Source: Kiritimatiellia bacterium (GTDB taxonomy: Bacteria; Verrucomicrobiota; Kiritimatiellia; RFP12; UBA1067). Taken from it: a stretch of 43,563 nt of DNA. Each line of letters begins with the position of its first letter. Position 1 is the stretch's first letter. The position numbers and the translations under genes are program-made. The notes under the pieces are model-generated. The model did no database searches. It was given only the letters and a program-made list of their open reading frames with translations, and was not told the DNA's origin. The DNA lies in NCBI GenBank assembly GCA_017525225.1, contig JAFXTB010000136.1:1-43563 (forward strand), read 5' to 3'. Below, in pieces: positions 17,101 to 42,419 of this stretch.

Positions 17101-18136
17101 TGGCAGGACCGTCGTAGTTGTCCACCACGGCCTGCGATATCCGCCAGTATGCGTCCATCCACCTGTCCTGCCGGATGTCCCACACGAGTTCCTGCGGCTC
17201 GGTGTAGTGCTTGCAGAAGCTGTCGAGGAAGGCGGGCTTGAGGTTGTCCAGGAAGCTCTGGGGGGTGCGGCTGTACCAGTGCGTCATGGTGCCTGTGTCA
17301 ACGGGCTGCACCAGATCGCGCTCCTGCGCGTACCGTACGAGCTCCTTGCGCAGTTTGGCCCGCACCTTGAGCGGCCAGAACAGGGTACGGTCCTTGTGGC
17401 CTTTATTGGGGCCGCCGCCGAACGCATCGTACCCTTCCGGGTATGGCACGGCATCGGGGAACGCCAACTGGAAGAAATCGTCCTGCCCGATGCGCAGGAG
17501 GTAGAAGTTCAGGCGACGCTTCACGATCCAGTCGATCTCCTTCTTCCAGTCGTCAAGGTTCCAGTGCTCGGCCTGGAAGCGATGGAGGGAGCGATGGGCG
17601 AAATACCTGAGGCCGCGCCATTCGAAACGCGGCGATTCGGTGATGTCGAGCCCGGAAAGGTCAGGTGCCGGACCCTGCGGCACGCGGTCTTCGTCCCAGA
17701 ACCAGGCACAGTCGGCCCGAAGCTCGAAGAAGCGGTACACCGCGTACAGCAGCGCGCGGGGGCGGGCGTTCAGCAGGTACAGCACGGTGCGTCCATCCTC
17801 CTGGCGCGAAAGCAGCCGGTAGGCGTCGCTTCCATTGCGCAGACCATCCGCCGGCAGTTCGCCGGAGATCGTCCGCTCGAACGTATACCGGTTGAAGGGC
17901 GTCGAGCCGAACACCACGAGATCGCATCCGGCGGACGGCTTTTCCACGATCCTGGGTTCGGTGCCCGTGACCCGCTTCCACAGCCCGGCAAACGTCTCGG
18001 CGGAAAGCCTTGCGATGCGGGCGTCCCCCTGGACGACCAGTTCGACCGGACGCTCCGCCGCCACTGCCTGCACATGCGCAGCCAGTGCCAACGCGGCCAA
18101 CGCCACCTTCATCTTCCAATATGCCAGTTTCGTCAT
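14186..18136 (-). CDS. Large exported two-barrel hydrolase: NAGLU/GH89-like + GHL10-like
   Basis: 1316 residues with a signal peptide in the first 28 (core VALAALALAAHVQAVAA). A second ATG at residue 9 is an equally good start. Residues about 30-150 form an N-domain typical of GH20b/GH89 proteins (ALLYAVYRFFELRADCAWFW). Residues 165-650 resemble the alpha-N-acetylglucosaminidase barrel (WKKEIDWIVKRRLNFYLL, GLFYWPETSHSDILMLDYF), but distantly. A helical linker follows, then an Ala/Arg/Pro-rich hinge (about 780-805). A second TIM barrel follows at about 808-1170, of the glycosyl-hydrolase-like 10 type (DADGIELDWMRF). The C-terminal 120 residues look like a beta-sandwich binding module. It is the last gene of the seven-gene operon, 22 nt after the GHL10-like gene. 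Activity on amino-sugar-containing glycans is inference. Confidence 0.75.
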   Translation of the reverse strand: MTKLAYWKMKVALAALALAAHVQAVAAERPVELVVQGDARIARLSAETFAGLWKRVTGTEPRIVEKPSAGCDLVVFGSTPFNRYTFERTISGELPADGLRNGSDAYRLLSRQEDGRTVLYLLNARPRALLYAVYRFFELRADCAWFWDEDRVPQGPAPDLSGLDITESPRFEWRGLRYFAHRSLHRFQAEHWNLDDWKKEIDWIVKRRLNFYLLRIGQDDFFQLAFPDAVPYPEGYDAFGGGPNKGHKDRTLFWPLKVRAKLRKELVRYAQERDLVQPVDTGTMTHWYSRTPQSFLDNLKPAFLDSFCKHYTEPQELVWDIRQDRWMDAYWRISQAVVDNYDGPAMFHTVALGERNYYGNDHRRNFELKWYNYRRISATLREHYPNAPLLVGTWDFRDSRWWKPEYVRKLVDTLDPANTIIFDYIADLPESRENNFVNWGVVGRFPWMFGIFHAYEAHNDLRGNYPTLARRIPIAAADPMCKGLFYWPETSHSDILMLDYFPAMAWDPSDPDIGRFLAGFCRRRYGVDKAARMEGLWRRILPALPADSWHLCIGSKPLYADYPAPYANLRGATLCDFGDKRMRANRWNVQQLSPHEAGLIALLEDLSAFDWTTADGRATRDAIDLARSAESRLLNLGLARLALDLAERTRLGRRRAAALDARIRRQAADLRKLLHGLADLLESSPEYSLNDSLAKMRASYETNPDFERTLKENGDAPYCRAHVYEPIRRCAEETFRIVESQISSLLDTGDFSGWPGRKDAIDREIDAVHAAFKKRPLSAMAPDVAAAAKRRPAALAAGAAAARRPAPPPDPARWVVLNEDCNQFMARHTQNSYDTPITRATVNTYVDQWLKGPVTHYFVNINGQTVYYDSKVFDQQWQVHRLCGCREGEKDPRHDRFIDVVEKMAKSGFDHNAAMIARAREKGVIPWISIRMNDIHGADNTNTCATSFFARRHPEFWRRPGAVPDGKGNWARFALDYSHKEVRELMLAFIKEALERYDADGIELDWMRFANHLTPGREREQAHCLTEVMRRTKALVDEVARRRGHPVQIGARVTSRPDAARAYGTDFEAWAREGLIDVLIMCNFWESIDFGLPMADWRKIVAAANPRVKVIAGCDQAFMDEGHFHSRRAITYPEYCGWLERMFAEGADGFYFFNHFDIARYPNRMTDMGRALVEGAWTRERFAREARAYPVSFCDSALSSRLQARQTPCALSSRVALHIPAGTPPEKGTVAVAVGSDRPLSAAEQASVRLNGIAPEGMVETELDKWIPRRPTRRSTAAAKWTFPLSALKSGDNVVSLDGSAPGNIWACEIFVTPEN

Positions 18137-18158: not shown

Positions 18159-19784
18159 TCATTTGCCCGGAACCGGGGCGAGTGGTCCCTGCCTTAGCGC
18201 ATCGAGGGCCATGGGGGTGTATTCTTCCAGCCGGAAGAACGACAGATCCGGCAGCCCCGCGTCGCGCACGACCTGGATCTGCCGCGCGATTTCGTCGGGA
18301 TCGTTGAACGGGATCGCCCCGCTCGCGAAGCAGATCATCGGACAGAGCACGGTCTTCGAGCCGCGCATGAATTCCATCTCGTTCTTCACGTCGTTTGCGA
18401 GCATCTTGTGCGTTGTGCAGTAGCACATGGTGAAGAGCATGTCGAAGAGCCCCTCCTTGCACCAGCGCGGCAGATCCTGTCCGCGCGCCTCGGCGCCGCC
18501 GAGCGTGGCCGCCGTGGCCGACGCGAAGAGGATGTCCGGCGTCTTGCGCTTCATTTCGGCTCTCGCCCTGCGGAGGATGTCGGTGAGAACGCCCATCCTG
18601 AATTGCGACCACGCCTTCGCAAGGGCGGGATCCTTGCGCACGGCCTGGGGCCAGTCGTCGATCTTGCGTCCGATCGACTCCTCGAACCTGCCCCTGCAGC
18701 GCGGACAGAAACAGTAGTCCACGCCGGGATAGCGGAAGTAGTCGAGCAGGAGACCGTCCGCCCCGGCCTCGGCCAGCTCCATCATGCCGTCGATCTCCCG
18801 CTGCACGTTCCCGGGATGAGTGGGGCAGAACCAGTTGCCGCGCTTGCCTGCGAACGACACCTGCAACCGGCCTTCGGCCTCCAGACGGTTGAGCTCCTTC
18901 TCCGAATCGACCGTGTAGAGTTCCCAGCAGGAGCGCCACGGGATGCATCTGATCCCATGCTTGCGGCAGGCGGCGAGGCACGCCTTGAGCGCGTCGCCGC
19001 GCTTCGCGATGATTGGCGCGGGCGGCTCGATCCTGCTGTTGTAGTACGCCTTGCCGTCGTATGCCATGAGCGGAATGATATCCGTGATGCCGTAGCCCTT
19101 CAGCATGCGGCACGTCTTGTCCCAGTCGCCGTCGAGGCCCCACACGTGCGTGCCGAGGTAGCGCCGCTCGCCGCCTCTGGGCGCGAACGCCTTGGTGCGC
19201 TCGATGGCGGCCTTCTCCGCGGCGTCCGCGCGCTTGAGCGCGGCGGCGCATTCCGGGGAGCCGGACGAGACCGGCGAGAAATCGCGCACGCGCACGGAGG
19301 CGTCAGCGCTGGCGTGGTCGACCGCAAGGGAGAATACGATCTGGAAGCCCGTGACACGCCTCCAGTCGGGGAGATCGGCGGGGTTGGGCTCGGCGTGCAG
19401 CTCGTGGAGCGAGACGTGCGTGTTCCAGTGGTATAGGCGCACCTTGCTCCTAAGGGCGATGCAGCGGGTCCATTCGCCGGGGGCGGACGGCTTTTCGACG
19501 CGCGTGCGGTAGTATCCGTCCCCCGTGCGGAAGTACAGCCACGTGCCGGTGATCGCGTCTGGATCCTCGCACTTCATCCAGAACGCGACGCCCGCCGCGG
19601 ACGAAAGATCCCACGGTTCCTTCAGCGGCACCTCGAACCGCCGCATCTCGCATGCGTGGCGGAGAGTCCCCGCCGCCAGCGGCTTCGGAAGCCGCACTTC
19701 GATTCCGCCCGATGGGGCATCCGCCGCCAGGGCACACGCAAGCGCCATAAGCGCCGCCATTCCGGCGATTGTTTCAGTTTTCAT
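18159..19784 (-). CDS. Exported GHL10-like (family 10-like) glycosyl hydrolase
   Basis: 541 residues. ATG 19784 is preceded by AAGGA 5 nt upstream and followed by a signal peptide (MKTETIAGMAALMALACALA). Residues about 20-190 look like a beta-sandwich module. The rest is a TIM barrel with the pattern GADGLLLDYFRYPGVD near residue 346, typical of glycosyl-hydrolase-like 10 proteins, followed at once by a cysteine knuckle (CFCPRC). The start overlaps the stop of the upstream aminotransferase gene in ATGA, so the exported hydrolase and the aminotransferase are translationally coupled. Substrate unknown. The barrel is similar in style to the second barrel of the following 1316-residue protein. 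Confidence 0.8.
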   Translation of the reverse strand: MKTETIAGMAALMALACALAADAPSGGIEVRLPKPLAAGTLRHACEMRRFEVPLKEPWDLSSAAGVAFWMKCEDPDAITGTWLYFRTGDGYYRTRVEKPSAPGEWTRCIALRSKVRLYHWNTHVSLHELHAEPNPADLPDWRRVTGFQIVFSLAVDHASADASVRVRDFSPVSSGSPECAAALKRADAAEKAAIERTKAFAPRGGERRYLGTHVWGLDGDWDKTCRMLKGYGITDIIPLMAYDGKAYYNSRIEPPAPIIAKRGDALKACLAACRKHGIRCIPWRSCWELYTVDSEKELNRLEAEGRLQVSFAGKRGNWFCPTHPGNVQREIDGMMELAEAGADGLLLDYFRYPGVDYCFCPRCRGRFEESIGRKIDDWPQAVRKDPALAKAWSQFRMGVLTDILRRARAEMKRKTPDILFASATAATLGGAEARGQDLPRWCKEGLFDMLFTMCYCTTHKMLANDVKNEMEFMRGSKTVLCPMICFASGAIPFNDPDEIARQIQVVRDAGLPDLSFFRLEEYTPMALDALRQGPLAPVPGK

Positions 19785-21109
19785 TTTTTCCTTCTTGAAA
19801 GCGCCACTCCGCCAAGAACAGGTTCCGTGTCGTTGACAGGCAGAAGCTCCGCGGCGTTGGCGGCCACCTTGCGGAACGCTTCGATGTAGGGATCTATGCG
19901 GGCGTGGTCGTCGTGCTTGAACCACGGCTCGCCGAGCGTGCGCGAATTCGCCGCCTCGGCGGCGGGGAGCAGACCGTGCTCCTTGCGCAGATCGGTTCCC
20001 TCGGGCATGAACGCCGTCGCGGTGGGGCGTCCGTGCCCGTAGACGTCAACGTCGAAGAATACGCTCGAAAGATGCAGCGGCATGTTGCACCCGAACGAGA
20101 AGCCGCCGCCGCACTCGGCGTTGAGCGCATCGCAGAACGTGACGTTCGACACGCCGCAGAACGCACGGCTGTCGTAGATGAAGCGCGAAGCGTACCAGCC
20201 CGCCTTGTCGCTCCCTTCGTCGCGCGGGTAGATGACGCGAATCCCGGGGACGTCCTCCACGCCCTTCCAGAAATACTTCATGGCGCGGTCTATCTCGGCT
20301 ATCTCGGCGTCATGCTTCTTGAGCTGCTCCAGCCCGATGGCCGCGGAGACCTGGTGCATCCTGTTCTTGAGGCCACCGAACGGGACGTTCTTCGTGGCCT
20401 CCATCTCCTCCTCGGAGAAGACATCCGCGATGCGGTCGTAGTGGCCGAAGCGGATCGCGCGCCTGTAGATCTCGGCGTCGTCGGTGACAAGCATGCCGCC
20501 TTCACCTATGGCGAAGCTCTTGCAGCTCATGAGCGACATCGCCGCAACATCGCCGAACGTGCCCAGCATCCTGCCCTTGTAGTGGCCGCCCTGCGCGTGC
20601 GAAACGTCCTCTATGACCTTGATGCCGTGCCTGCGGGCGATGGACATTATTTCGTCCATCGGTGCCGGATGCGCCATGTAGTGCACCACCATCACGGCCT
20701 TCGTCCGTGGCGTTATGCGCGCCTCGAACGAGGCGGGGTCCATCTGAAGCGTGTTGGGGTCGATATCGCAGAAGACGACGCCCGCCCCGAGCGCGAGCGC
20801 GCCCGTGCAGCTGGCCCAGTACGTGAGGGACGTGCAGATCATCTCGTCGCCCGGCCCGAGACCGATGGCATGCATGGCGGCGTTGAGCGCGCTGGTGCCG
20901 TTGTTGTGCGAAAGGGCGTATTTCCGTTTCTGCCACGAGGCGAACGCCGCCTCGAAGCGCCGGGCGATGTCGGTGCCCGACATGTTCCCCGTCTCCAGCA
21001 CTTCAGCCTGCGCCTTGCGCATCGCATCGTTCACTATCGGCCAGTGGAAGAGCGATTCATCCGCCTTCTCGACAACCGGCCTGCCGCCTAGAAAAGCCAA
21101 ATTGGACAT
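19781..21109 (-). CDS. DegT/DnrJ/EryC1/StrS-family aminotransferase, no export signal
   Basis: 442 residues from ATG 21109, with AAAGGAG 9 nt upstream. It belongs to the PLP-dependent sugar aminotransferase family: NNGTSALNAAMHAIGLGPGD is the cofactor phosphate region, EDVSHAQGG holds the Asp that contacts the pyridine ring, and the Schiff-base lysine is in CKSFAIGEGG (about K196). Family members put an amino group on keto sugars or cyclitols. It is a close paralogue of the Tat-signalled DegT at 23093-24570, but this copy has no signal and should be cytoplasmic. It starts 33 nt after the Tat amidohydrolase and overlaps the GHL10-like gene. The substrate cannot be read from sequence. Confidence 0.92.
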   Translation of the reverse strand: MSNLAFLGGRPVVEKADESLFHWPIVNDAMRKAQAEVLETGNMSGTDIARRFEAAFASWQKRKYALSHNNGTSALNAAMHAIGLGPGDEMICTSLTYWASCTGALALGAGVVFCDIDPNTLQMDPASFEARITPRTKAVMVVHYMAHPAPMDEIMSIARRHGIKVIEDVSHAQGGHYKGRMLGTFGDVAAMSLMSCKSFAIGEGGMLVTDDAEIYRRAIRFGHYDRIADVFSEEEMEATKNVPFGGLKNRMHQVSAAIGLEQLKKHDAEIAEIDRAMKYFWKGVEDVPGIRVIYPRDEGSDKAGWYASRFIYDSRAFCGVSNVTFCDALNAECGGGFSFGCNMPLHLSSVFFDVDVYGHGRPTATAFMPEGTDLRKEHGLLPAAEAANSRTLGEPWFKHDDHARIDPYIEAFRKVAANAAELLPVNDTEPVLGGVALSRRKK

Positions 21110-21142
21110 GTCTGCCGTCTCCTTTCTTTATCTCTGCCACCG

Positions 21143-22141
21143 CTACGCCAGCGCGAGCTCGCGCAGCTGGTTCTCCCGTGCGACCTTCCTGTATACCGAG
21201 GCGGTGATGCGTCCGGTGCGAAGAAGCGTCTTGAGGGTATCCGCCAGCGGCGACACGTACCTGTCCGGCGCGCAGATGTCGAGGCCGAACATTATGCGGT
21301 CCTGGAACTCCGTGAGGAACCTGCCGGCATAGTCGAGGTCGCGGGCGAGCGAATTGTTGCCGCTGCCCGCCGAGAGGTCACCGTAGAGGTTGGGGTACTT
21401 GCGCATCAGCTGCGCGAGACGGCCTTCCTCCACCGGGCCCGTCGGATAGCCTGCGCGCTCGTCCCACGTCCTATACCTGCCGATCTCGCACCAGAAGCTC
21501 TGCGAATGCCCGAAGAACCTGAGGCGGGGAAAGCGCTGCAGGCATATCTCAAGCTCGGGCAGACCCTTCTCGTCGACAAGCCCGTACAGCCAGTCCTCGT
21601 CGGCGGCGAGGTGGAACGTCAGCGGCAGCCCTGCGGCCTCGCAGCCCTTGAAGTAGTTCTGCATGATCGGATCGAGGAAGTGCAGATTGGCGCACACCTC
21701 GCCGCAGACCCGGCATCCCTTGTCGCGGTAGTACTTGAACACGCGCTCGAAGTCGCCGAAGGCGTTGTTGCCGAGGGCGCGTGGATCGATGCCGACAGAT
21801 GGGATGAAGCGGTCCGGGGCCTGCGCGCAGGTGCGAAGTATCTGCTCGGTCGTCATGCCGCCGATGAAGTTCTCGGGGTTGCAGAGCGAGAGGATCACGC
21901 CCTTCTCCACGCCGATGCGGTCGTAGTGCGCCACGAGGTCCTCCGCTATGCAGAGCGGACGCGCCGTCTTGATGTACACGGGCGGCATCGGGAACTCGGT
22001 GCAGTGGGCGTGGATGTCAATGAACCTCGTGGCGGCGATCACGGACTCCACGTCGTCCGCCACCATCGCGGGACATGCGGCACCGGTCGCCACCGTGGCG
22101 GCGCCGCCTGCCTTGATGAAGCTTCTTCTGGATGTCTCCAT
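21143..22141 (-). CDS. Amidohydrolase_2-family metal hydrolase with Tat signal
   Basis: 332 residues. The N-terminus has a twin-arginine signal (TSRRSFIKAGGAATVATGAA), so the folded enzyme is probably exported. The metal site of the PF04909 family is visible: HxH at 44-46 (FIDIHAHC), TFHLAAD, FFGHSQSF and the late Asp in FGLDICAPD. Such enzymes hydrolyse or decarboxylate small cyclic or amide substrates. It is closely related along its length to the next upstream gene (22145-23050), which lacks the signal. Shared stretches include LEICLQRFPRLRFFGHSQ and LAQLMRKYPNLYGDLSAGSG. Only 3 nt separate the genes. Two tandem copies targeted to different compartments is unusual. Confidence 0.88.
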   Translation of the reverse strand: METSRRSFIKAGGAATVATGAACPAMVADDVESVIAATRFIDIHAHCTEFPMPPVYIKTARPLCIAEDLVAHYDRIGVEKGVILSLCNPENFIGGMTTEQILRTCAQAPDRFIPSVGIDPRALGNNAFGDFERVFKYYRDKGCRVCGEVCANLHFLDPIMQNYFKGCEAAGLPLTFHLAADEDWLYGLVDEKGLPELEICLQRFPRLRFFGHSQSFWCEIGRYRTWDERAGYPTGPVEEGRLAQLMRKYPNLYGDLSAGSGNNSLARDLDYAGRFLTEFQDRIMFGLDICAPDRYVSPLADTLKTLLRTGRITASVYRKVARENQLRELALA

Positions 22142-22144
22142 GGC

Positions 22145-23050
22145 CTACACCCCCAGGATGCGCATCGCGTTGCCGCGCGCGACCTTTTCGAAAACCGTCT
22201 CGGATATCTCGCCCTTGGCGAGCATGTCGCGTAGAAACGCGGAAAGCCCGTTGGGGTTGGACCGTTCTCGTTCCGGCGAGCAGATGTCCATGCCGAAAAG
22301 CAGACGGTCCTGGAACTCGGTGAGGAACTTCGCCGCGTAGCCCCGGTCGCGGGCGAGCGCGTTGCGTCCGCTGCCGGCGGAGAGGTCGCCGTAGAGGTTG
22401 GGATACTTGCGCATCAGCTGGGCTATGCGGCCTTCCTCCACCGGACCGTCAGGATAGCCGAAGCGGACATCCTGTCCGCGATACCTGCCGATCTCGCACC
22501 AGAACGCCTGCGAATGCCCGAAGAACCTGAGGCGCGGGAATCGCTGCAGGCATATCTCCAGGCCCGGCATGCCGGGCAGGTCCACGATCCCGTAGTTGTT
22601 CCCCGTGAACGGCGCCATGTGGAAGGTGACTGGGAATCCTACCTCCTCTGCGGCCTTGAAGAGCGCCTGGAGCCGCCCGTCGAGGATGGACAGGTTGCAG
22701 CATATCTCGCCCAGCCCCTTGCAGCCCTTGTCGCGATACCACTTCAGGCCGTCTGCGAAAGGCGACATGAAGTTGTTGTTGTAGTTGCGCGGATCGATGT
22801 TGCAGAACGGTATGAAGCGCCCGGGATGCATCTTCGCGATGTTGAGGACCTCTTCGTTCGATTGCGACTGGAACGTGTTCTCCGCGTTGCACAGGGGAAG
22901 TATCACCCCCTTCTCCACGCCGTGCCTGTCGTAGAATTCAAGCATCTCGCCGGGATCGGATATCTGGTGGATGTCCTTGCCGTGGCTGGGTGGATACGGC
23001 ACAAAGTGCTCCTGCACGCAGTGGCCGTGTATGTCGATGTATTGCGTCAT
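22145..23050 (-). CDS. Amidohydrolase_2-family metal hydrolase, cytoplasmic paralogue
   Basis: 301 residues from ATG 23050, with GGGAAAGGA a few bases upstream. The HxH metal motif is at H8 and H10 (YIDIHGHC), almost at the N-terminus, so there is no export signal. Other family motifs are TFHMAPF, FFGHSQAF and FGMDICSPE. It pairs with the Tat-signalled copy immediately downstream. A duplication followed by gain or loss of the signal is the simplest origin. In the operon it follows the frameshifted DegT gene after a 42-nt gap. The reaction is unknown; a role in processing an aminated or amidated sugar derivative is inferred only from the aminotransferase neighbours. Confidence 0.88.
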   Translation of the reverse strand: MTQYIDIHGHCVQEHFVPYPPSHGKDIHQISDPGEMLEFYDRHGVEKGVILPLCNAENTFQSQSNEEVLNIAKMHPGRFIPFCNIDPRNYNNNFMSPFADGLKWYRDKGCKGLGEICCNLSILDGRLQALFKAAEEVGFPVTFHMAPFTGNNYGIVDLPGMPGLEICLQRFPRLRFFGHSQAFWCEIGRYRGQDVRFGYPDGPVEEGRIAQLMRKYPNLYGDLSAGSGRNALARDRGYAAKFLTEFQDRLLFGMDICSPERERSNPNGLSAFLRDMLAKGEISETVFEKVARGNAMRILGV

Positions 23051-23092
23051 GGCGTCCTTTCCCTGTCTGTTCCCTGGAAGCGGCGCATGCCG

Positions 23093-24570
23093 TCAGGACC
23101 TCGAGCTCCAGCCCGTGAGCGCGGGCTTCGCCGGCGCAGCGGGCTTCCAGTCCCTGAGCGCATGGACGTTGGCCGCCACCTTGGCGACGGCCTCGGCATA
23201 CAGGGCGATCACGTCTGCGTCGCAATGCTTGAACCATGGCATCCCTATCAGCTTCGGCGCGATGGATTCGGAGACCGGCAGCCGGCCCGTGAGATCCCTT
23301 GGCGAAACGCCCGCAGGCAGGTTCCTAGTCGCCGGCGGCCTGCCGTTGCGGAACATGTCCTCGTCGAAGAACACCGACGACTGGTGCAGGGGGAAGTGCA
23401 GCCGTGGTTGAAGTCCCCGCGGCCGACCTCGGCGTTGAGCGCCGCGACGAAGCTCGCCACCGGCACCCCGCCAAACGCCTCGGCCGAGTAGTGCGCCCTC
23501 GCGTAGTACCAGCCGGCCTTGTCGCTCTGCGGATAGGACGGGAAGATGTTGGCAAGCCCTGCCACTCCAGCTATCTTCCCCCAGAAGCACTCGTGTGCGC
23601 GCGCTATCTCGGCGATCTCGGCGTCGTACTTCTTCAGCTGCTCGATCCCGATCGCCGCCGAACACTGGTTGAGGCGGTTCTTCACGCCGCCGAACGGCAG
23701 TATCTTCGTGGCCGCGTACTCCTCGGGCCGCCAGCATCGGGAGATGCGCTCGTACTGCCCCCAGCGCACCACGCGGCGGTAGAGCTCGGGATCGTCGGTA
23801 ACGAACATTCCACCCTCGCCTATCGCGAAACTCTTGCCGGTCATTAGCGACATCGCCCCGCAGTCGCCTATCGTCCCAAGCTTGCGGCCCTTGTAGCGGC
23901 CGCCCTGCGCGTGCGATACGTCCTCGACAACCTTTATGCCGTGCCTGCGGGCTATGGACATTATTGGATCCATGTCGCAGGGCTGGGCGTACGCATGCAC
24001 CACCACCACGGCCTTCGTGCGCGGAGTGATGTGCGCCTCGAACGAGGCGGGGTCCATCGTGCAGTCGTCGGCCTTGACATCGCAGAACACGACGTTCGCG
24101 CCAAGATGGATCGCACCCATGCAGCTGGCCCAGTAGGTAATGGATGGACAGATCAGCTCGTCGCCCGGCCCCAGGCCGATGGCGAAGAACGCCGCGTTGA
24201 GCGCAGCCGTGCCATTCGGGGCGGAGCTGGCGTACTTCGTGCCCTGCCATTCGGCGAACTTGCGCTCGAATTCCGCCGCGACGTCTATGCCCGACATCCT
24301 CCCTTCGCACAGGATGCTGTCGTTCACCCGCCTCATGGCCTCGTTTACGATCGGCCAGTGGAAGATCCGCTTGTTGGCCGCCGCCCTATCCCTGGATATG
24401 ACGGGCGTGCCGCCGAGAAGCGCAAGGCGGTCGGCCCCGCGTACTGCGGCGGCGCATGCGCAAGAACCTGCGGCCACGGCCGCGCCGCCGGCCTTGATGA
24501 ACGATCTCCTGTTGACCCCGACAGAGGAAGGACGTACGGATGCAGGCTGCGCATGGAGGGATGTATTCAT
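23093..24570 (-). CDS. Tat-signalled DegT-family aminotransferase, interrupted by a single-base frameshift
   Basis: The intact reading would be 492 residues from ATG 24570 (AGAGGG 7 nt upstream). A twin-arginine signal is at the N-terminus (NRRSFIKAGGAAVAAGSCA), then a DegT fold closely similar to the paralogue at 19781-21109: PNGTAALNAAFFAIGLGPGD, EDVSHAQGG, and the lysine in GKSFAIGEGG (about K244). In the first frame the alignment breaks after FNHGCTSP and the frame stops at 23248. The missing C-terminus (QSSVFFDEDMFRNGRP to TGWSSRS) continues in another frame to 23093. Adding one G to the five-G run at 23389-23393 restores GCTSPLHQSSVFFD against GCNMPLHLSSVFFD in the paralogue. This may be an assembly error, a real mutation or a variable switch. 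A periplasmic DegT enzyme would be unusual. Confidence 0.8.
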
Positions 24571-24607
24571 TTGCCGACCCTCTTTCTCGTGTGAAGCCCG
24601 CAGACGG

Positions 24608-25993
24608 TCAGGGCTGCGCCAGGATGGCGACCAGGAACGAGCGCGGCGGCAGTTCCGATGGAAATGGAACCGCGGCGTCGGTGCGGTCCTTGTCCGTGAT
24701 GCGGCACGCTGTCACGACGCGTCCCTGGAAATCGCAGGAGAGCGGGATCGCCTTGTCGGAATCATTGGCCAACATCAGTGCGGCATCCTTCTCGCCCTTG
24801 GCCGCCGTCGCCCAGAGATCCTTGCCGTCCGCCGTGCGCACGGCCACGGCGCTGCCGCGCTTGCGCAGCTCGTTGAACGCGGTGAAGGCGTAGTATGCCT
24901 TGTGCGGCTTGAAGGTGAGGGGGTTGAAGAGCGGGGAATAGTTGCCCACGCCGCAGCGCGCGTCGTAGATGCACGCCACATCGCACGGACCGTTCTGCAG
25001 TCCTATCAGCTCGGCGGCGATCCCGGCGGCCTGGATGGCCGAACCGAGGTTCTCGTGCTTGACGTACGGCAGCCACTCGTTGAATATCCGTTCACACCTG
25101 TCTGCCGTGAAACCGTAGCTGCAGAGGACCTCGTCCGCGAAGCGCACCTGCCGCATTGCCTCGGCCGGCACGGAGTAGGAATGGTAGGAGAAGAAGTCGA
25201 GCGGCCATCCGTTGTCGCGCACGGCCGCGAGGAACTTGTGGAAGCATTCCACGAAGTGCATCGTGCGCGGCGAGGAGTTTGCCGCCGGCACATGGTCGGA
25301 CCCCACGCCTGCGTAGAACCCGCATGCACCGTAGCCGCCGATCTTCAGATGCGGGAACTTAGCCTTCAGGTAGGGCGCCACCGTGCCGTACATGCGGATG
25401 TACTCGGAGAACGGCGCGCGCCACATTGGACTGCGCTCGATGTCGGGGTTGCTGTCAGGTTCGTTCCATATCTCCCAGTAGGTGATCTTGATCTTCATGC
25501 CGTCCGCCCAGCCTTCGGTGTAGTGGCGGATCACGTGCTCGCAGATGCGTTCCCACTTGGCGAAGTCCTTCGGCGGCATGGTACGCACCGGCGGCAGGCC
25601 CCACGCCGCGAAGTTCTCGATCGTCACGCCCAGGCGGAAGAACGGCTCAACTCCGTTCTTGTCGAGCGCCTGCAGGAGGGAATCCGTGTACGCGAAACGG
25701 TAGTTCTTCGGATCGTTCTCGTCGGCGTCGAAGTCGGGGAAGAGGTTGGGGATGTCCACGTACAGGCCGGTGCCGAGCCACCCGCCGACGTCATGCAGTC
25801 GCGAATAGGGGATACCCGCATCCTTGAGGTAGTGGAGCATCGTGTAGTTCCTCAGCTGCCCGATGAGAGGCGGCTGCCCGGCGCCATTGACACGCTTGAC
25901 AGGCCCCACGACCTTGTCGAAGTCAACCTTCACTTCCGCCGCGGTGGCGCAGAGCACGCCTGCGGCCAGCATCATCCAGATGTTTCGTTTCAT
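24608..25993 (-). CDS. Exported GH39-like glycoside hydrolase
   Basis: 461 residues from ATG 25993. The frame is open 21 codons further, but that part is the leader with a repeated Shine-Dalgarno. A signal peptide occupies the first 18-19 residues (MKRNIWMMLAAGVLCATAA). The GH39 pattern is clear: RLHDVGGW near the start, ITYWEIWNEPD as the acid/base site, and FNEWLPYV as a candidate nucleophile site. GH39 members include beta-xylosidases and alpha-L-iduronidases, retaining enzymes of the clan A barrel. It is the first gene of the seven-gene operon, with promoter 26045-26073. The exact substrate cannot be assigned. Confidence 0.85.
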   Translation of the reverse strand: MKRNIWMMLAAGVLCATAAEVKVDFDKVVGPVKRVNGAGQPPLIGQLRNYTMLHYLKDAGIPYSRLHDVGGWLGTGLYVDIPNLFPDFDADENDPKNYRFAYTDSLLQALDKNGVEPFFRLGVTIENFAAWGLPPVRTMPPKDFAKWERICEHVIRHYTEGWADGMKIKITYWEIWNEPDSNPDIERSPMWRAPFSEYIRMYGTVAPYLKAKFPHLKIGGYGACGFYAGVGSDHVPAANSSPRTMHFVECFHKFLAAVRDNGWPLDFFSYHSYSVPAEAMRQVRFADEVLCSYGFTADRCERIFNEWLPYVKHENLGSAIQAAGIAAELIGLQNGPCDVACIYDARCGVGNYSPLFNPLTFKPHKAYYAFTAFNELRKRGSAVAVRTADGKDLWATAAKGEKDAALMLANDSDKAIPLSCDFQGRVVTACRITDKDRTDAAVPFPSELPPRSFLVAILAQP

Positions 25994-26000
25994 CTTTTCT

Positions 26001-26036
26001 GGCACTCCTTCGTGTGTTCCTTGGCACTCCTTCGTG
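26001..26036 (-). repeat. Duplicated Shine-Dalgarno segment in the operon leader
   Basis: Two identical 14-bp copies, CACGAAGGAGTGCC on the minus strand, lie at 26001-26014 and 26023-26036 (period 22 bp). Each carries AAGGAG. The copy nearer the gene is 11 nt from ATG 25993; the far copy is about 33 nt away. The predicted transcript starts near 26038, so the leader consists almost wholly of these two units. Confidence 0.7.
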
Positions 26037-26044
26037 CTGCGACT

Positions 26045-26073
26045 AGTGTACCACATGGCGGCCGACTTCGCAA
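26045..26073 (-). promoter_or_regulatory. Promoter of the GH39-DegT-amidohydrolase operon
   Basis: TTGCGA at 26068-26073 and TACACT at 26045-26050 on the minus strand are spaced by 17 bp, and TGG precedes the -10 (extended -10). No operator repeat was noticed around it. It is the only good promoter found ahead of the seven-gene run. Confidence 0.6.
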
Positions 26074-30824: not shown

Positions 30825-31727
30825 TCAGAGCGCCTTCATCCTGGCAAGCGCCGTGGCGAGGGTCTCCTGCGGCGAACCGCTCTGGAGGGTCTTGCTGAAC
30901 ACCTCTACGGACAGCCACGAGGAGGCGCCTATGGAGTCGAGCGCGCCAAGGATCTCCGGCCAGGGCGCGATGCCGTCGCCCGGCCACACGCGGTCCGCAT
31001 CGGTCAGCTGCGTGCGCGGCGGAGTGGCGGGGTAGTCGTTCACATGCAGCACCGGCACCCACGACGCATCGAAGCGGCGGAACGTTTCAAACGAGCCGCC
31101 GCCGCGGTAGGTGTGGTACACGTCGGGCAGGATGCCTACGTCGGGGCGGCCCGTGGCGCGTACGACGGATATCGCGTGCTCCGGACGGAACAGCTGGATC
31201 GAATGCCCCCAGTATTCAAGCAGCGGACGCACGCCATGCTGGCGGCCGATGTTGAGAACGGCCACATATCTCTCGGCCACCTCGTCGCGGGTGACGCGCG
31301 GCGAGCCAGGTTTGTGCAGGCCGAACATCGATGCCGCGATGCACGGGCATCCCAGCTCCGCCAGCACCGCCATGTCGCGCCGGGTCTCCTCCAGGCCCTC
31401 GCGGCGGATGGATGCGTCGGGATGGGCCCACTTGCCGAACGCAATGCCGTTGACGAACGAGAAGCCGGCATCTTCGGCCATCTTGCGTATGCCGTCCAGT
31501 TCACCGGCCGCCTTCGCGGCATGGACATCCTTGAGCCAGGGCTCGATGCCATCGAAGCCGGCCTCTATGGCCAGGCGCACCTGTTCCTTGAGAGGAAGCC
31601 CGAACTCCCGAATGGAGGCGGTGTTCACCGACAGCCTGCGCCGCTTGCCCATTCCAAGCGAAGCGCATCCGGAAGCCAGCGCGGCCATGCCGCCGCAGAA
31701 GAACCGTCTTGTCAGTCTGGCGCTCAT
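30825..31727 (-). CDS. Sugar phosphate isomerase/epimerase-like TIM barrel, probable lipoprotein
   Basis: 300 residues. The N-terminus carries twin arginines (TRRFFCGGMAA) and a lipobox, LASGC, so it is probably processed as a lipoprotein with Cys20 at the mature end. The barrel is of the xylose-isomerase-like AP endonuclease 2 family: LAIEAGFDGIEPWLKDVHAA, LLEYWGHSIQLF, GILPDVYHTYRGGG, VPVLHVNDYPATP and a late SVEVF. Its ATG overlaps the dnaJ stop in ATGA, so it is translationally coupled to a chaperone gene, an odd partner. Possible activities are isomerisation or epimerisation of a keto sugar or inosose; the substrate is unknown. Confidence 0.8.
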   Translation of the reverse strand: MSARLTRRFFCGGMAALASGCASLGMGKRRRLSVNTASIREFGLPLKEQVRLAIEAGFDGIEPWLKDVHAAKAAGELDGIRKMAEDAGFSFVNGIAFGKWAHPDASIRREGLEETRRDMAVLAELGCPCIAASMFGLHKPGSPRVTRDEVAERYVAVLNIGRQHGVRPLLEYWGHSIQLFRPEHAISVVRATGRPDVGILPDVYHTYRGGGSFETFRRFDASWVPVLHVNDYPATPPRTQLTDADRVWPGDGIAPWPEILGALDSIGASSWLSVEVFSKTLQSGSPQETLATALARMKAL

Positions 31728-37546: not shown

Positions 37547-38239
37547 TCAAACCTTCGTCCGGGCGAATTCGGCCAGTATCTCCACTCCGGCAGAGCAGCC
37601 CAGACGCGTGGCACCGGCCTCAAGGAGCGCAAGGGCGACCGCAAGCGTGCGTATGCCACCGGCAGCCTTGACGCCCATCTCCGGCCCCACCACTCGGCGC
37701 ATGAGCCTTACATCGTGCACGGTTGCCCCGCCCGTACCGAAACCGGTGGAGGTCTTCACGAAATCGAATCCGGCCGCCTTGGCCATCCGGCACGCCTTCT
37801 CCTTCTCGCGGTCGGTGAGATAGCAGCATTCTATTATCAGCTTGGACACCGCCCCCTTCCGCGCGCGGCAGATGGCAGCCCATCCTGACAGGTCGCGTCG
37901 CAGCTGCCGGGCATCGCCATGCCTGAGCCTCTGCACATCGATCACGAAGTCGATGTCAAGCGCGCCTGCGGCGAGCGCAGCCTCGGCCTCTGCGACAGCC
38001 GCCGCTACGGTCCCCTGGCCAAGAGGGAAGTTGACAACCGTGCCCACGCGCACGCGGCTTCGTGCCAGCAACCGCACGGCCAGCGGCACCTGGCACGGGT
38101 TCACCATGGCGCATGCGAAGCGATGTCGCCGGGCCTGGGCACACAGCTTCTCCACCGCATCGGCCGGACCGGTCGCCTTCAGGAACGTATGGTCGATCAT
38201 CGCCGCAAGGCCGGCCTTGTCCAGCTTCGCCAGGTCCAT
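37547..38239 (-). CDS. deoC: Deoxyribose-phosphate aldolase
   Basis: 230 residues. ATG 38239 has GGGAG 8 nt upstream. It cleaves 2-deoxyribose 5-phosphate to glyceraldehyde 3-phosphate and acetaldehyde. Family motifs are MIDHTFLKATGPADAVEKLC, CAMVNPCQVPLA, GTVVNFPLGQG, the Schiff-base lysine in DFVKTSTGFGTGGAT (about residue 160) and VKAAGGIRT. It follows ribokinase by 21 nt and is last in the operon that begins with the Gfo/Idh/MocA gene. With the kinase it forms a plausible pentose entry into glycolysis. Confidence 0.93.
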   Translation of the reverse strand: MDLAKLDKAGLAAMIDHTFLKATGPADAVEKLCAQARRHRFACAMVNPCQVPLAVRLLARSRVRVGTVVNFPLGQGTVAAAVAEAEAALAAGALDIDFVIDVQRLRHGDARQLRRDLSGWAAICRARKGAVSKLIIECCYLTDREKEKACRMAKAAGFDFVKTSTGFGTGGATVHDVRLMRRVVGPEMGVKAAGGIRTLAVALALLEAGATRLGCSAGVEILAEFARTKV

Positions 38240-38260
38240 GTGGTCCGCTCCCTTCCTTCG

Positions 38261-39160
38261 TCAGACCACTTCGCGGCGGAACGGCACCGAGGACTGCGCT
38301 CCAGGGCGGGTGACGGATATCGCCGCGGCCTTCTGCGCGAACTCCACGGCCTCGTCGCACGGCAGGCCTTCCGCCAGCGCCACGGCGAAAGCACCGTTGA
38401 ACGTGTCGCCGGCGGCAACGGCATCGACGGCCTTCACCTTGCGGCAGGGGAACAGACAGTCAGAGTCGCCGCACCAGCAGCCCCGGGCCCCCATCGTCAC
38501 AAGCACGTGCCTGACGCCCTTTCGCATCAACGCCGCCGTCGCACGGCGGGCCGAGGCGGCATCCACTACCTGCACGCCTGTGAGCAGGCCGGCCTCCGTC
38601 TCGTTGGGGGTGATCCAGTCGACAAGCCGAAGCAGAGCCGGGGGCAGACGACGGGCGGGCGCCGGGTTGAGTATCACGGGTACGCCCGCGTCATGCGCGG
38701 TCTTGGCCGCCCACAGCACCGTTTCGACGGGCGTCTCAAGCTGCATCAGCAGGGCGGCGGCGGAGCGGATGTCGCCGGCGAACGGTTCAACATCTGCGGG
38801 GGAAAGCGTACCGTTGGCGCCAAGCGCCACGGAGATGCAGTTCTGTCCATGCCGATCCACAAGGATCAGCGCCGTACCGGACGGTTCGCGGGCGTCCACC
38901 ACCAGGCGGGCATCGATGCCATCCTTGCGCATCCTGGCGGCGCAATCGCGTCCGAAGAGATCATTTCCCACCTTTGCGATGAACACGCAGGAGCGACGCC
39001 TCGCGGAGAGGCGCGCCACGGCCACGGCCTGGTTCGCGCCCTTGCCGCCGGGATTCATCATGAAGGTCCCTCCTGAGACCGTCTCGCCGGGCACGGGGAT
39101 CTTGCTTCCGGTGATCACCATGTCCGTGTTGGTGGAACCAAGTACCACTATCTTCTTCAT
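38261..39160 (-). CDS. rbsK: Ribokinase-type PfkB sugar kinase
   Basis: 299 residues. ATG 39160 has GGAGG 6 nt upstream, one of the best ribosome-binding sites in the window. PfkB signatures are NPGGKGANQAVAVARL (about 36-51) and DAVAAGDTFNGAFAVAL, with the catalytic Asp near 248. The ribokinase start LGSTNTDMVITGSKIPVPGE is conserved, which favours ribose or deoxyribose over fructose or adenosine. Ribokinase next to deoxyribose-phosphate aldolase fits use of pentoses released from nucleosides or glycosides. It lies 32 nt after the DUF1080 gene. Confidence 0.92.
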   Translation of the reverse strand: MKKIVVLGSTNTDMVITGSKIPVPGETVSGGTFMMNPGGKGANQAVAVARLSARRRSCVFIAKVGNDLFGRDCAARMRKDGIDARLVVDAREPSGTALILVDRHGQNCISVALGANGTLSPADVEPFAGDIRSAAALLMQLETPVETVLWAAKTAHDAGVPVILNPAPARRLPPALLRLVDWITPNETEAGLLTGVQVVDAASARRATAALMRKGVRHVLVTMGARGCWCGDSDCLFPCRKVKAVDAVAAGDTFNGAFAVALAEGLPCDEAVEFAQKAAAISVTRPGAQSSVPFRREVV

Positions 39161-39192
39161 CTCTAGCCTCCTGCCGGCTGCGATCCTTCACT

Positions 39193-41049
39193 TCAATTTC
39201 TGATGCGGATGTTGCGGAACTCCACCTTCATGGGCTTTCCCTGGTGGAGCTGGAGCGCAATATGCCCCTTCGCCGGGAAGAATTCCATGCGCGGATCTTC
39301 CACGGAGGTGGTGCGAACACCGTTGATCCACACTGTGATCGTGCGTCCTTCAACCTTCACGCGGATGTCGTTCCATTGTTCTACGCGGTAGAGCCGCTGG
39401 AGGGCCTTGCCGTCCGCAAAGCGCGCGACCTTCTTCTTTCCGGAGGAGTCGATCGCCACATCCGTCCCGCGTTCGCCCACGAGGTGCTGGCGGGGGTGAT
39501 AGAGGAATCCCACGATACTGCCGCCACCGTCCATGTCCGCCTGGTAGCCATTGTCCCTGACGAGCTGCACCGGACAGCGCAACTGGATGCCGCTGTTGGC
39601 CCCCTTCGAAAGACGGAACTCGGCGCGAAGCTCGAAGTCGGAAAGCTCCTCGGCAGTGTAGACGAGATGGTGGTTGGGCTTGCAGGGATGCTCCGCCGTG
39701 GACTCACCCACGATCGCACCGTCGCGCACGGAGAAGAAACCGTCCTGCTGGCTCCAGCCTGCGAGGTCGCGGCCGTTGAATATCGGACGAAACAGCACGG
39801 CCTCGGCGCCTGGCACAGAGCCGCGGCGCTCGAGAGTGTCGAGTATGCGCACCAGCGCCACCCGCTCATCGCCTGTCGCCGCCTGCGCGGCGGCCACAAG
39901 CGACTTCGCCAGCGTTTCCGGCAGGCGCGACGACACGAGGTGCACCTCGTCGTTCTCACGGGTGATTGTGGACATCTCCGGACCATCGCCTATCCGGTAC
40001 GTGAGATGCAGTTCCTTATACTTCCCGGGGGCGGGATCGCGCGCGAAGCCGCCGTGCCCTGCCAGGCGGTTGCCCGCCATTATCGAGCGCGAGCCGCCCG
40101 CCACGAGCGAGCGCACCATGTCCAGCACATCGGCGAAAGGACGCGCAATCGGCTTGCCGTCGGCCCCGGTGACGACATCGTTGCCGTAGTACCCGTACTC
40201 CGCCCTGATCACGGTCACGGCCGCATCGTCCGCCTCGAACATGCGCGTGGCGAGACGGATGATGGAACCGGCGAGACGATCCTCGCGAGGGAACTCCTTC
40301 AGCAAAGCAAGCAGAGCGGAGATATCTTCGGGATCGCAGAGCGTGGCAAGGGATTTGAACACCTCGGTGCGCAACCCGGCGTCCTTCGTCGTACGCGCCA
40401 GCGCGAGGAAACGCGGCAGCAGGGAACGTACGCGCCTGTCGCCTAGTACGCCCACGGCCAGACGCGCCTTCTTCGGGTCGGGACCGTCGACAAACGCGAG
40501 CAGACGCTCCACGATGCCGTCGTTCGGGAAGCCGACAAGCTGGCGACGGGCGAACGTGGCCTCGAAGCCCGTCCCAAGGGCCGCATCCACGAGCGCCGGC
40601 ACGGTGGACAGGTCGCCCATCTGCACGGCGGTCTTCGGGGGAAACGCGGTGATCGCCGCGGCGGCGCCGGCATAGCCTGGCATTACAGGCTCCTTGCGTA
40701 TGCGCAGGGAGGTATCCAGAGCGGCGCGACGCGACGCGTCCTTCACTGACTCGCGCGCTGCGGCGAGCGCGGCCTCGGCCTCTGGACCTGGGATGTTCTG
40801 CAATCCGTAGCGCGCAGCATGGAAGAGCGGCGGCTCGGTAGCGTCTGCGAGCAGCGCGGCCAGCGTCGGCACGCACGCCGCAGTTCCCTTGTGGCATAGC
40901 TCCTGGCAGGCCGTGACCTTGTCGTTGAGGCCGTTCTCCTTCAACACCGCCAGCAGTTCCTGCTCTGTCATGCGGAACGCAGGATGCTTCAGCTCGGCGG
41001 CAAACACCCCCAGGACGGCCAGACAACAAACCATAAATGCTTTCTTCAT
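39193..41049 (-). CDS. HEAT-repeat protein with C-terminal DUF1080 (3-keto-glycoside hydrolase-like) domain
   Basis: 618 residues from ATG 41049, preceded by GAAGGGTGAAGAG and followed by a signal peptide (MKKAFMVCCLAVLGVFAA). Residues about 25-330 are alpha-helical HEAT-like repeats (VPTLAALLADATEPPLFHAA, LRTEVFKSLATLCDPEDISA). Residues about 425-618 are the DUF1080 beta-sandwich, starting LFRPIFNGRDLAGWSQQDG and continuing HHLVYTAEELSDFELRAEFR and WNDIRVKVEGRTITVWING. DUF1080 proteins include hydrolases or lyases that cleave 3-keto-glycosides. The upstream gene encodes a Tat-exported Gfo/Idh/MocA oxidoreductase, the type of enzyme that could make the keto sugar, so the two may work in sequence outside the cytoplasm. 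Confidence 0.85.
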   Translation of the reverse strand: MKKAFMVCCLAVLGVFAAELKHPAFRMTEQELLAVLKENGLNDKVTACQELCHKGTAACVPTLAALLADATEPPLFHAARYGLQNIPGPEAEAALAAARESVKDASRRAALDTSLRIRKEPVMPGYAGAAAAITAFPPKTAVQMGDLSTVPALVDAALGTGFEATFARRQLVGFPNDGIVERLLAFVDGPDPKKARLAVGVLGDRRVRSLLPRFLALARTTKDAGLRTEVFKSLATLCDPEDISALLALLKEFPREDRLAGSIIRLATRMFEADDAAVTVIRAEYGYYGNDVVTGADGKPIARPFADVLDMVRSLVAGGSRSIMAGNRLAGHGGFARDPAPGKYKELHLTYRIGDGPEMSTITRENDEVHLVSSRLPETLAKSLVAAAQAATGDERVALVRILDTLERRGSVPGAEAVLFRPIFNGRDLAGWSQQDGFFSVRDGAIVGESTAEHPCKPNHHLVYTAEELSDFELRAEFRLSKGANSGIQLRCPVQLVRDNGYQADMDGGGSIVGFLYHPRQHLVGERGTDVAIDSSGKKKVARFADGKALQRLYRVEQWNDIRVKVEGRTITVWINGVRTTSVEDPRMEFFPAKGHIALQLHQGKPMKVEFRNIRIRN

Positions 41050-41067
41050 CTCTTCACCCTTCACCTG

Positions 41068-41099
41068 ACTATTCACTATTCACTATCACCTATTCACTA
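41068..41099. repeat. Short tandem repeats between the oxidoreductase stop and the DUF1080 gene
   Basis: On the minus strand GTGAATA occurs three times, with a related GTGATA unit between. The array starts at the TAG stop of the oxidoreductase and ends just before the ribosome-binding site of the next gene. It contains stop codons in more than one frame. Replication slippage here could alter spacing. Confidence 0.5.
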
Positions 41100-42419
41100 G
41101 ATTATCTGCCAGCCTTCGCGCTGGGCGCGGGAGAGCATGCGGTTGGCCTCGGGATCGCCGACGAATTCCTCCTTCACGGGATCCCAGGTCATGTCGCGAC
41201 CGAGCCACTGGGCGATGTTGGCGCAATGGACGGTCGTCATCGAACGGTGCATCATCACCGGGTTGGCGATGGTCTTTGTGCGCGATTTCACCGAATTGAG
41301 GAACTGGCGCAAGTGATTCTGGCCGGTATAGCCCGTCCGCACGCAGTAGTCGGCAAGGATCTTCTGGTAGTCGGCAAGCAGGGACGGCCGCGAAACCTCT
41401 GGCATCGTGTAGCCATCCGCGCACGAGACCCACCCCTCGCTGCCCACGTAGCGGACGCCGCACGTGCCGCGCCATCCACGCTGCACCGTCACCATCTCCA
41501 CGCCGTTCGCAAAGCGCATGCGAAGGCCATCGGGAACGGGAGTGCGCAAGCTTGGATAGAACACGGGCGACGTGTCTTCCATGCCAAGGGCGTCATGGCA
41601 CTGGGCGAACGTGTGCGAGCCCCATTCGCCTATGATGCCGGTATAGAGGTCGTGGTCACGGTGCCAGGCGCCGCGCAGATATGAACTGTTGTACGGACGC
41701 CACGCGCATGGACCGAGCCAGGCGTCCCAATCCACCTCCTCACGCGGCGGCTGAGGCTCGGCCGGCAGCCATTGGCGCGACAGGTTGACGTTGCCGCCGG
41801 GCGCAAGGTGGGCGTAGACGGTCTTGACCTCGCCAAGTCGACCGAGGCGGACAAGTTCGTTGCAGACGACGAAGTTCGGCTCGCTGAGGCGCTGCATGCC
41901 CGCCTGATAGACGCGTCCGAACCTCCGCGCCGTGGCGACCACGGCCTGTCCTTCGCGCACGGTCATGGACGCCGGCTTCTCGGTATACACATCCTTCCCT
42001 GCACGCATGGAAAGGATGGCGACACCGGCATGCCAACGGTCGCCGGTAGCGGTGAGGATGGCATCGATGTCCGGCCGCGCCAGCACCTCCTTCATATCGA
42101 TGTACTGAGCGCAGTCCCTGGTGCCATAGTGCTTGTCGACGAGGTCCTTGACCGCATCGCGGCGCTCCTTGCGCACATCGCAGATGGCTACGAACTGGAC
42201 ATCTCTCTCCGGCAATACCCAGCCGCGCAGATCGCTGATCCCGCGTCTTCCAATACCGATGGCGGCCATGACGATACGGTTCGAGGGTGCGACGGTACCA
42301 TCGAGTCCCAGCGCGGAGGCGGGCACGAGCCATGGCAGCGCAAGCGCATCGCCCGCGCCGCCTAGAAACGAACGGCGGGACACCCCAGACCGTAAGGATT
42401 TAGAGACCTTGTTTTCCAT
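41097..42419 (-). CDS. Tat-exported Gfo/Idh/MocA-family oxidoreductase
   Basis: 440 residues from ATG 42419; an ATG at 42428 is in frame but overlaps the -10 element. A frame open far upstream crosses the tRNA genes and is not coding. The Tat signal is SRRSFLGGAGDALALPWLVP. The Rossmann part is MAAIGIGRRGISDLRGW, then ICDVRKERRDAV, and the family catalytic-region motif YTEKPAS is near residue 148. The C-terminal alpha/beta domain contains WDAWLGPCAWRPYNSSYLRG, common in exported PVC members. It probably oxidises or reduces a sugar hydroxyl with bound NAD(P). It is first in the operon with DUF1080, ribokinase and deoC. Confidence 0.9.
   Translation of the reverse strand: MENKVSKSLRSGVSRRSFLGGAGDALALPWLVPASALGLDGTVAPSNRIVMAAIGIGRRGISDLRGWVLPERDVQFVAICDVRKERRDAVKDLVDKHYGTRDCAQYIDMKEVLARPDIDAILTATGDRWHAGVAILSMRAGKDVYTEKPASMTVREGQAVVATARRFGRVYQAGMQRLSEPNFVVCNELVRLGRLGEVKTVYAHLAPGGNVNLSRQWLPAEPQPPREEVDWDAWLGPCAWRPYNSSYLRGAWHRDHDLYTGIIGEWGSHTFAQCHDALGMEDTSPVFYPSLRTPVPDGLRMRFANGVEMVTVQRGWRGTCGVRYVGSEGWVSCADGYTMPEVSRPSLLADYQKILADYCVRTGYTGQNHLRQFLNSVKSRTKTIANPVMMHRSMTTVHCANIAQWLGRDMTWDPVKEEFVGDPEANRMLSRAQREGWQII

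Follow-up and report, generated by a model that had tools for sequence, protein, structure and literature searches.

In the draft genome of a gut bacterium, Kiritimatiellia bacterium GCA_017525225.1 (labelled G000 here), two genes for exported-looking enzymes adjoin two ordinary genes of ribose and deoxyribose salvage, and the question that this locus raises is whether the salvage genes tell us what the exported enzymes act on. The genes lie in a window of 43,563 nucleotides (nt) on contig JAFXTB010000136.1 and encode, in order, an oxidoreductase of the Gfo/Idh/MocA family with a twin-arginine translocation (Tat)-type signal, a protein with a DUF1080 domain, ribokinase (RbsK), and deoxyribose-phosphate aldolase (DeoC). 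A first-pass annotation had described them as one operon on the minus strand with gaps of 47, 32, and 21 nt, and had read the last two genes as a sign that an oxidative route for nucleosides or pentosides may begin with the first two; order, strand, and spacing were all confirmed when the sequence was re-read. The answer that we favor, with a probability of about 0.6, is that the first two proteins make up an extracytoplasmic module for glycosides, oxidation by the Gfo/Idh protein being followed by elimination and hydration at the DUF1080 domain, and that rbsK and deoC are incidental to it. This removes a tempting but weak claim, the use of neighboring pentose genes as a clue to the substrate of an oxidative glycosidase, and leaves a better-supported and more interesting unit, the pair of Gfo/Idh protein and HEAT-repeat protein, with or without DUF1080.

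Conservation of the oxidoreductase and its HEAT-repeat partner

The second protein is multidomain, a point missed in the first-pass annotation: HEAT repeats come first, then a middle domain, with DUF1080 at the C terminus. Genome contigs were scanned with an alignment of the Gfo/Idh protein, which gave at least 578 relatives; the best 80 supply the loci compared here, rumen Kiritimatiellae first, followed by other Verrucomicrobiota, Lentisphaerae, Planctomycetota, Hydrogenedentota, and a few others (as labelled). At least 600 nt of downstream sequence was available at 76 of the 80 loci and at least 4 kb at 51, 13 of which have a Gfo/Idh protein at least 70% identical to that of the window. A HEAT-repeat homologue starts no more than 1.5 kb behind the Gfo/Idh gene in 73 of those 76 loci (tblastn, E 1e-4) and is found behind it in 75 of all 80; the queries were taken from 10 of these loci and from the N terminus of the window protein (P0002), and self-matches of loci were removed. 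No such homologue follows in L217, L218, and L227, and the two genes of L192 are separated by a second Gfo/Idh gene. All 10 downstream proteins picked for Pfam analysis contain HEAT_2, and G000 has one HEAT_2 match, adjoining this oxidoreductase gene, against 54 Gfo/Idh matches genome-wide, HEAT_2 being the one HEAT family searched there. In a limited search of titles and abstract openings, no description of a Gfo-HEAT pair was found.

By profile, DUF1080 was detected near 26 of the 80 loci and together with the middle domain near 22; counting called genes across the whole locus gives 29. At some relatives' loci the calls come from a crude purpose-made caller, with some genes missed or mis-stranded, and Pfam scans of neighbors covered chosen proteins. 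The domain is fused to the HEAT protein in L149 to L160, L162, L164, L165, L200, and some others, and in L181 it forms a separate open reading frame (ORF) 9 nt behind the HEAT protein. These counts lead us to regard the oxidoreductase and the HEAT protein as the core, with DUF1080 as a frequent addition.

Neither RbsK nor DeoC was found near any of the 80 loci, at E 1e-8 or at 1e-5. The linkage implied by a single four-gene operon is thus unseen in relatives, and sequence comparison suggests that only the first two genes belong together. In L149, the closest of these loci (Gfo/Idh protein 88% identical), the genes downstream are a 160-amino-acid ORF with no Pfam match, a GH106 gene, and a GH5-type gene, and in three relatives from the same family the gene right behind the pair encodes NIF3, a phosphotransferase system (PTS) EIIA protein, or an acyltransferase.

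Domains, folds, and proposed mechanism

The Gfo/Idh protein has both domains expected of its family, the NAD-binding domain PF01408 (58.9 bits; cut-off, 24) and the C-terminal domain PF19051 (69.9 bits; cut-off, 23.3), and all 15 aligned sequences, the window copy among them, share its twin-arginine pair, R15-R16. The top fold match of its structural model is the Alistipes glucoside-3-dehydrogenase AL3 (8tdf, 8tdh), entries that are also its top PDB matches by sequence; the names of AL3, AL2, and the eliminase/hydratases are taken from PDB entry titles. The model of the second protein has a predicted local distance difference test score (pLDDT) of 87.3. Its match to PF06439 spans profile positions 2 to 187 of 187 (128.3 bits; cut-off, 26.8), which places it in the DUF1080 family, and the fold of residues 415 to 618 matches BT3469 (4jqt; Z 22.0) and the 3-keto-glycoside eliminase/hydratases 9fbe, 8rr2, 8v31, and 8tda (Z 18.0 to 19.3), with root-mean-square deviations of 2.5 over 172 aligned residues for 9fbe (Z 19.3) and 2.3 over 167 for 8v31 (Z 18.6). 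The domain has the eliminase/hydratase fold, although a common fold by itself shows no function. Toxin and lectin chains that appeared in the same search were set aside as generic beta-sandwich matches, and a limited search by titles returned no account of eliminase/hydratase catalytic residues; similarly limited literature searches on 3-keto-disaccharide hydrolases and on DUF1080 in particular phyla turned up nothing specific. Oxidation followed by cleavage at DUF1080, as first proposed, is likely to be right in outline, both proteins resembling enzymes of 3-keto-glycoside routes by homology; it is the substrate drawn from the neighboring genes that lacks support.

The middle domain had PF11875 as its top family in eight of eight chosen fragments. 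The window copy scores 17.8 bits (E 0.003), under the gathering cut-off of 27.1, and a whole-protein scan at E 0.001 did not return it; among the eight fragments, only that of L042 lies over the cut-off (42.7 versus 27.1). By profile the domain occurs near 35 of the 80 loci. This part of an exported-looking bacterial protein appears, in sequence, to be similar to the C-terminal domain found in mitochondrial DNAJC11; a limited search by titles found no bacterial exported protein with a DNAJC11 (DUF3395)-type domain.

We propose that the Gfo/Idh protein is exported via Tat, presumably with bound NAD(H), and that it would oxidize the glycoside at position C3, after which its partner's DUF1080 domain would free the aglycone by elimination and hydrate the glycal, acting as an eliminase/hydratase. 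The HEAT region, which usually accompanies this subfamily of Gfo/Idh proteins, probably docks to the oxidoreductase, and in rumen Kiritimatiellae relatives the DUF1080 enzyme would have been fused onto this platform. RbsK and DeoC would be cytoplasmic salvage enzymes whose genes arrived behind the pair in this lineage, perhaps on the same transcript, and would not define the substrate. If the Gfo/Idh and HEAT proteins do bind each other, this would offer an explanation for the way in which exported Gfo/Idh enzymes and the users of their 3-keto products are organized. With less confidence, and at somewhat below even odds, we suggest that Tat-exported Gfo/Idh protein and HEAT docking platform form an undescribed extracytoplasmic complex in several phyla, mostly of the Planctomycetes-Verrucomicrobia-Chlamydiae (PVC) group, which in the rumen Kiritimatiellae a fused DUF1080 domain would turn into a two-subunit oxidative glycosidase, possibly with direct transfer of the 3-keto intermediate, and that the middle domain is a bacterial relative of the DNAJC11 C terminus.

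Comparison with known oxidative routes

Both folds match enzymes of the Alistipes/Bacteroides oxidative glycan route (AL3, 8tdf/8tdh; AL2, 8v31; BT2157, 3osd; hydratase, 8tda; eliminase/hydratase, 9fbe/8rr2), whereas the fusion of DUF1080 behind HEAT and DNAJC11-C-like domains sets the window protein apart, and identity is about 20%. The enzymes of that route were reportedly dealt with in a 2024 study. Operons of the Bacteroides/Alistipes type contain more adjacent enzymes, a second Gfo/Idh protein or a triosephosphate isomerase (TIM) barrel, for later steps; neither is adjacent to the pair, where the next genes are rbsK, deoC, a metallophosphoesterase gene, and a GH20 gene. Some way past the DUF1080 gene, at a distance of about 7.5 kb (30825 to 31727 of the window), an AP_endonuc_2 TIM barrel is encoded by a gene that overlaps dnaJ by 4 nt; the protein has a twin-arginine-type N terminus, and its fold class includes sugar epimerases. 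Elsewhere in G000, contig C75 (L255, 1627 to 6266) carries another Gfo/Idh gene, directly behind it a gene whose product matches DUF1080 twice, and a 474-amino-acid transporter-looking gene; from its sequence, this cluster looks more typical of 3-keto-glycoside breakdown.

In the lactose route, oxidation is assigned to LacABC, a membrane-bound dehydrogenase that is not a Gfo/Idh protein. Passages of PMC9007349 name BT2157 as a 3-ketotrehalose hydrolase and propose a DUF1080 3'-ketolactose hydrolase beside LacABC in Caulobacter. As outlined in those passages, the Caulobacter route is like the proposed module in that C3 oxidation takes place in the periplasm and is followed by a DUF1080 protein; it acts on lactose, whereas the substrate of the window pair would be a glycoside of unspecified kind. 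The levoglucosan route, LgdA-LgdB1-LgdB2-LgdC, runs through oxidation, elimination, hydration, and reduction according to the abstract of PMC7676230, and thus has the oxidation-elimination-hydration order in common with our proposal; it differs in using four enzymes on an anhydrosugar, and a HEAT-DUF1080 fusion goes unmentioned in that abstract.

Alternative explanations

Several observations weigh against an oxidative glycosidase, and some of them point to an alternative in which sugars at the cell surface or outside the cell are modified or sensed by the Gfo-HEAT core, DUF1080 being a sugar binder or an ordinary glycanase. DUF1080 was not detected nearby by profile in 54 of the 80 loci, some of them on short contigs, and the oxidoreductase may therefore do something else. 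Another near match to the DUF1080 fold is a binding module, CBM66 (Z 17.0), so the fold alone is no proof of catalysis. A single-domain DUF1080 protein is described as an endo-xanthanase/lichenase in passages of PMC9007349, which also mention a Pedobacter with ten DUF1080 genes, none with a lactose phenotype; DUF1080 therefore need not mean 3-keto chemistry. In addition, the Gfo/Idh model is of modest confidence (pLDDT 69.5), and the protein reaches 122.9 bits (best over residues 14 to 282) with the NCBIfam equivalog for the BT_2158 glycoside 3-dehydrogenase, far under its cut-off of 750. Set against this alternative are the top fold matches, which include oxidative glycan-route enzymes, the joining of DUF1080 to the same pair in several phyla, and the glycoside hydrolase genes near the oxidoreductase gene in L149 and L148, and we consider it unlikely that the pair is something other than a 3-keto-glycosidase.

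The 32-nt gap is a further point against a purely incidental rbsK-deoC, keeping co-transcription with the pair quite possible. The four genes could form a single transcript and have no common chemistry, being induced together when, for instance, debris of plants or microbes releases both glycans and nucleic acids. The gaps of 32 and 21 nt agree with this, as do the AGGAGG that precedes the rbsK start and the lack of a minus-strand terminator-like site between the genes in a simple scan. Within 37547 to 42419 that scan gave a single minus-strand terminator-like site (37785 to 37771) and a single promoter-like site (38223 to 38196), both inside deoC, and sites of either kind are about as frequent in shuffled sequence. 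The arrangement was, however, seen in G000 only, among the relatives examined. The directon moreover runs on past deoC, after a gap of 144 nt, through six more co-directional genes (metallophosphoesterase, GH20, coaX, grpE, dnaJ, and a TIM-barrel protein), in which unrelated neighbors are equally tight (coaX and GH20 are 9 nt apart, and dnaJ and the TIM-barrel gene overlap by 4 nt), so spacing is weak evidence for shared function here. Co-regulation of this kind seems to us improbable, to about the same degree as a sugar-sensing or sugar-modifying core.

The substrate claim turns on rbsK and deoC themselves, and both proteins are true to their enzyme families at equivalog level: RbsK scores 334.5 bits with TIGR02152 (cut-off, 299.65) and is also over the PRK11142 cut-off, with ribokinase 1gqt/1rkd as its top PDB matches, and DeoC scores 224.8 bits with TIGR00126 (cut-off, 117.3), with 5dbu on top. 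Deoxyribokinase was considered for RbsK, and ribokinase fits the sequence best, some activity on deoxyribose being conceivable. Among 19 relatives that have the oxidoreductase (E ≤ 1e-100), rbsK (E ≤ 1e-60) is present in 15, in none of them on the same contig, and deoC matches (E ≤ 1e-20) occur in all 19, on the same contig only in G026, where the match is 37% identical and about 14 kb away; these are draft genomes, in which lying on another contig is weaker than being unlinked.

The relatives' rbsK genes keep other company. A permease (Pfam Ureide_permease/Sugar_transport) stands beside rbsK in 15 of 21 loci, the other six including contigs that stop near the gene, and a clear inosine-uridine (IU)-type nucleoside hydrolase is found at four (L048, L051, L052, and L053), with weaker matches at L064, L065, and L144 (a longer stretch of L058); permease and hydrolase queries were taken from L136 (a longer stretch of L051). 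The ribokinases of these clusters are the same family member as that of the window (53 to 78% identity), whereas the window gene is without permease or hydrolase neighbors and sits behind the oxidative pair. G000 has two IU-type hydrolase matches over cut-off on other contigs, one of them 64.5% identical to the relatives' hydrolase, and a permease (63%) on another contig, and therefore has a classical route, of the hydrolytic kind to which the relatives' rbsK clusters point. Three of the four closest deoC relatives lie amid unrelated genes, namely CorC-like (G005), HisRS (G027), and YidC, about 1 kb away (G006). In G001, of the same genus, deoC lies directly against, or overlaps, the end of a Tat-type Gfo/Idh gene (L129, 6856 to 8908) whose product is 28% identical to the window protein; this is a different enzyme, since its best match in G000 is only 51% identical, on contig C40. 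The G001 case is a hint of a link between deoC and an oxidoreductase.

Oxidative cleavage of nucleosides or pentosides by the pair, with RbsK and DeoC consuming the freed (deoxy)pentose, could draw on this hint, on the family identities just given, on the single strand and close spacing, and on the ease with which 3'-keto-nucleosides shed their base. It is opposed by the absence of rbsK and deoC from the 80 related loci, by the permeases and nucleoside hydrolases that accompany rbsK in relatives, by the hydrolase and permease that G000 has elsewhere, and by the lack of a transporter gene within the four-gene stretch; we regard it as very unlikely, and the pentose genes as no guide to the substrate. 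Among about 3,800 genes, 54 are of Gfo/Idh and about 10 of DUF1080 type, and the chance that a given gene falls in the two slots behind one of these is about 3%, a rough figure in which neither strand nor the side-by-side position of rbsK and deoC is taken into account; a private juxtaposition is therefore not remarkable. On its sequence context, the placement of rbsK-deoC behind the pair looks private and is probably incidental. An assembly artefact, with unrelated sequences wrongly joined on the contig somewhere between the pair and rbsK, would suit a draft genome of 180 contigs and an arrangement unseen elsewhere, but near the junction the G+C content of 2-kb bins stays level (0.632, 0.655, and 0.647) and open frames and spacing are intact, which leaves it extremely unlikely.

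Features of the window

Table 1. Features of the four-gene stretch, in window coordinates
Feature	Coordinates	Strand	Evidence
Gfo/Idh/MocA oxidoreductase, Tat-type signal, probable glycoside 3-dehydrogenase	41097..42419	-	PF01408, PF19051; twin-arginine motif; fold match AL3
SRRSFL twin-arginine motif	42363..42380	-	Sequence and alignment
Exported-looking multidomain HEAT/DNAJC11-C-like/DUF1080 protein, Gfo/Idh partner	39193..41049	-	Domains, fold, HEAT conservation
HEAT_2 stretch (PF13646)	40270..40509	-	Sole HEAT_2 match in G000 at E ≤ 0.001
Middle domain resembling PF11875 (DnaJ-like_C11_C)	39934..40227	-	Below cut-off here, above in relative L042
DUF1080/3keto-disac_hyd domain (PF06439)	39199..39792	-	Pfam; fold 4jqt Z 22.0, 9fbe Z 19.3, 8v31 Z 18.6
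Ribokinase gene rbsK, judged outside the conserved module	38261..39160	-	TIGR02152 and PRK11142 over cut-off; PDB 1gqt/1rkd best; own AGGAGG
Deoxyribose-phosphate aldolase gene deoC, judged outside the conserved module	37547..38239	-	TIGR00126 over cut-off; PDB 5dbu best

The metallophosphoesterase encoded behind deoC has a match at E 1e-60 in 16 of 37 genomes (36 relatives and G000), the non-self copies being 42 to 50% identical. Farther away, a cluster at 19784 to 26056 contains two genes for DegT/DnrJ-type pyridoxal phosphate (PLP) aminotransferases, two Amidohydro_2 genes, and a GH39 gene. One of the DegT/DnrJ-type genes (23251 to 24570) carries a Tat-type signal, and so does one of the two Amidohydro_2 genes; a PLP enzyme, if exported, would be unusual. 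Finally, a 1,316-amino-acid protein with NAGLU-type and GHL10-type barrel matches is encoded at 14189 to 18136.

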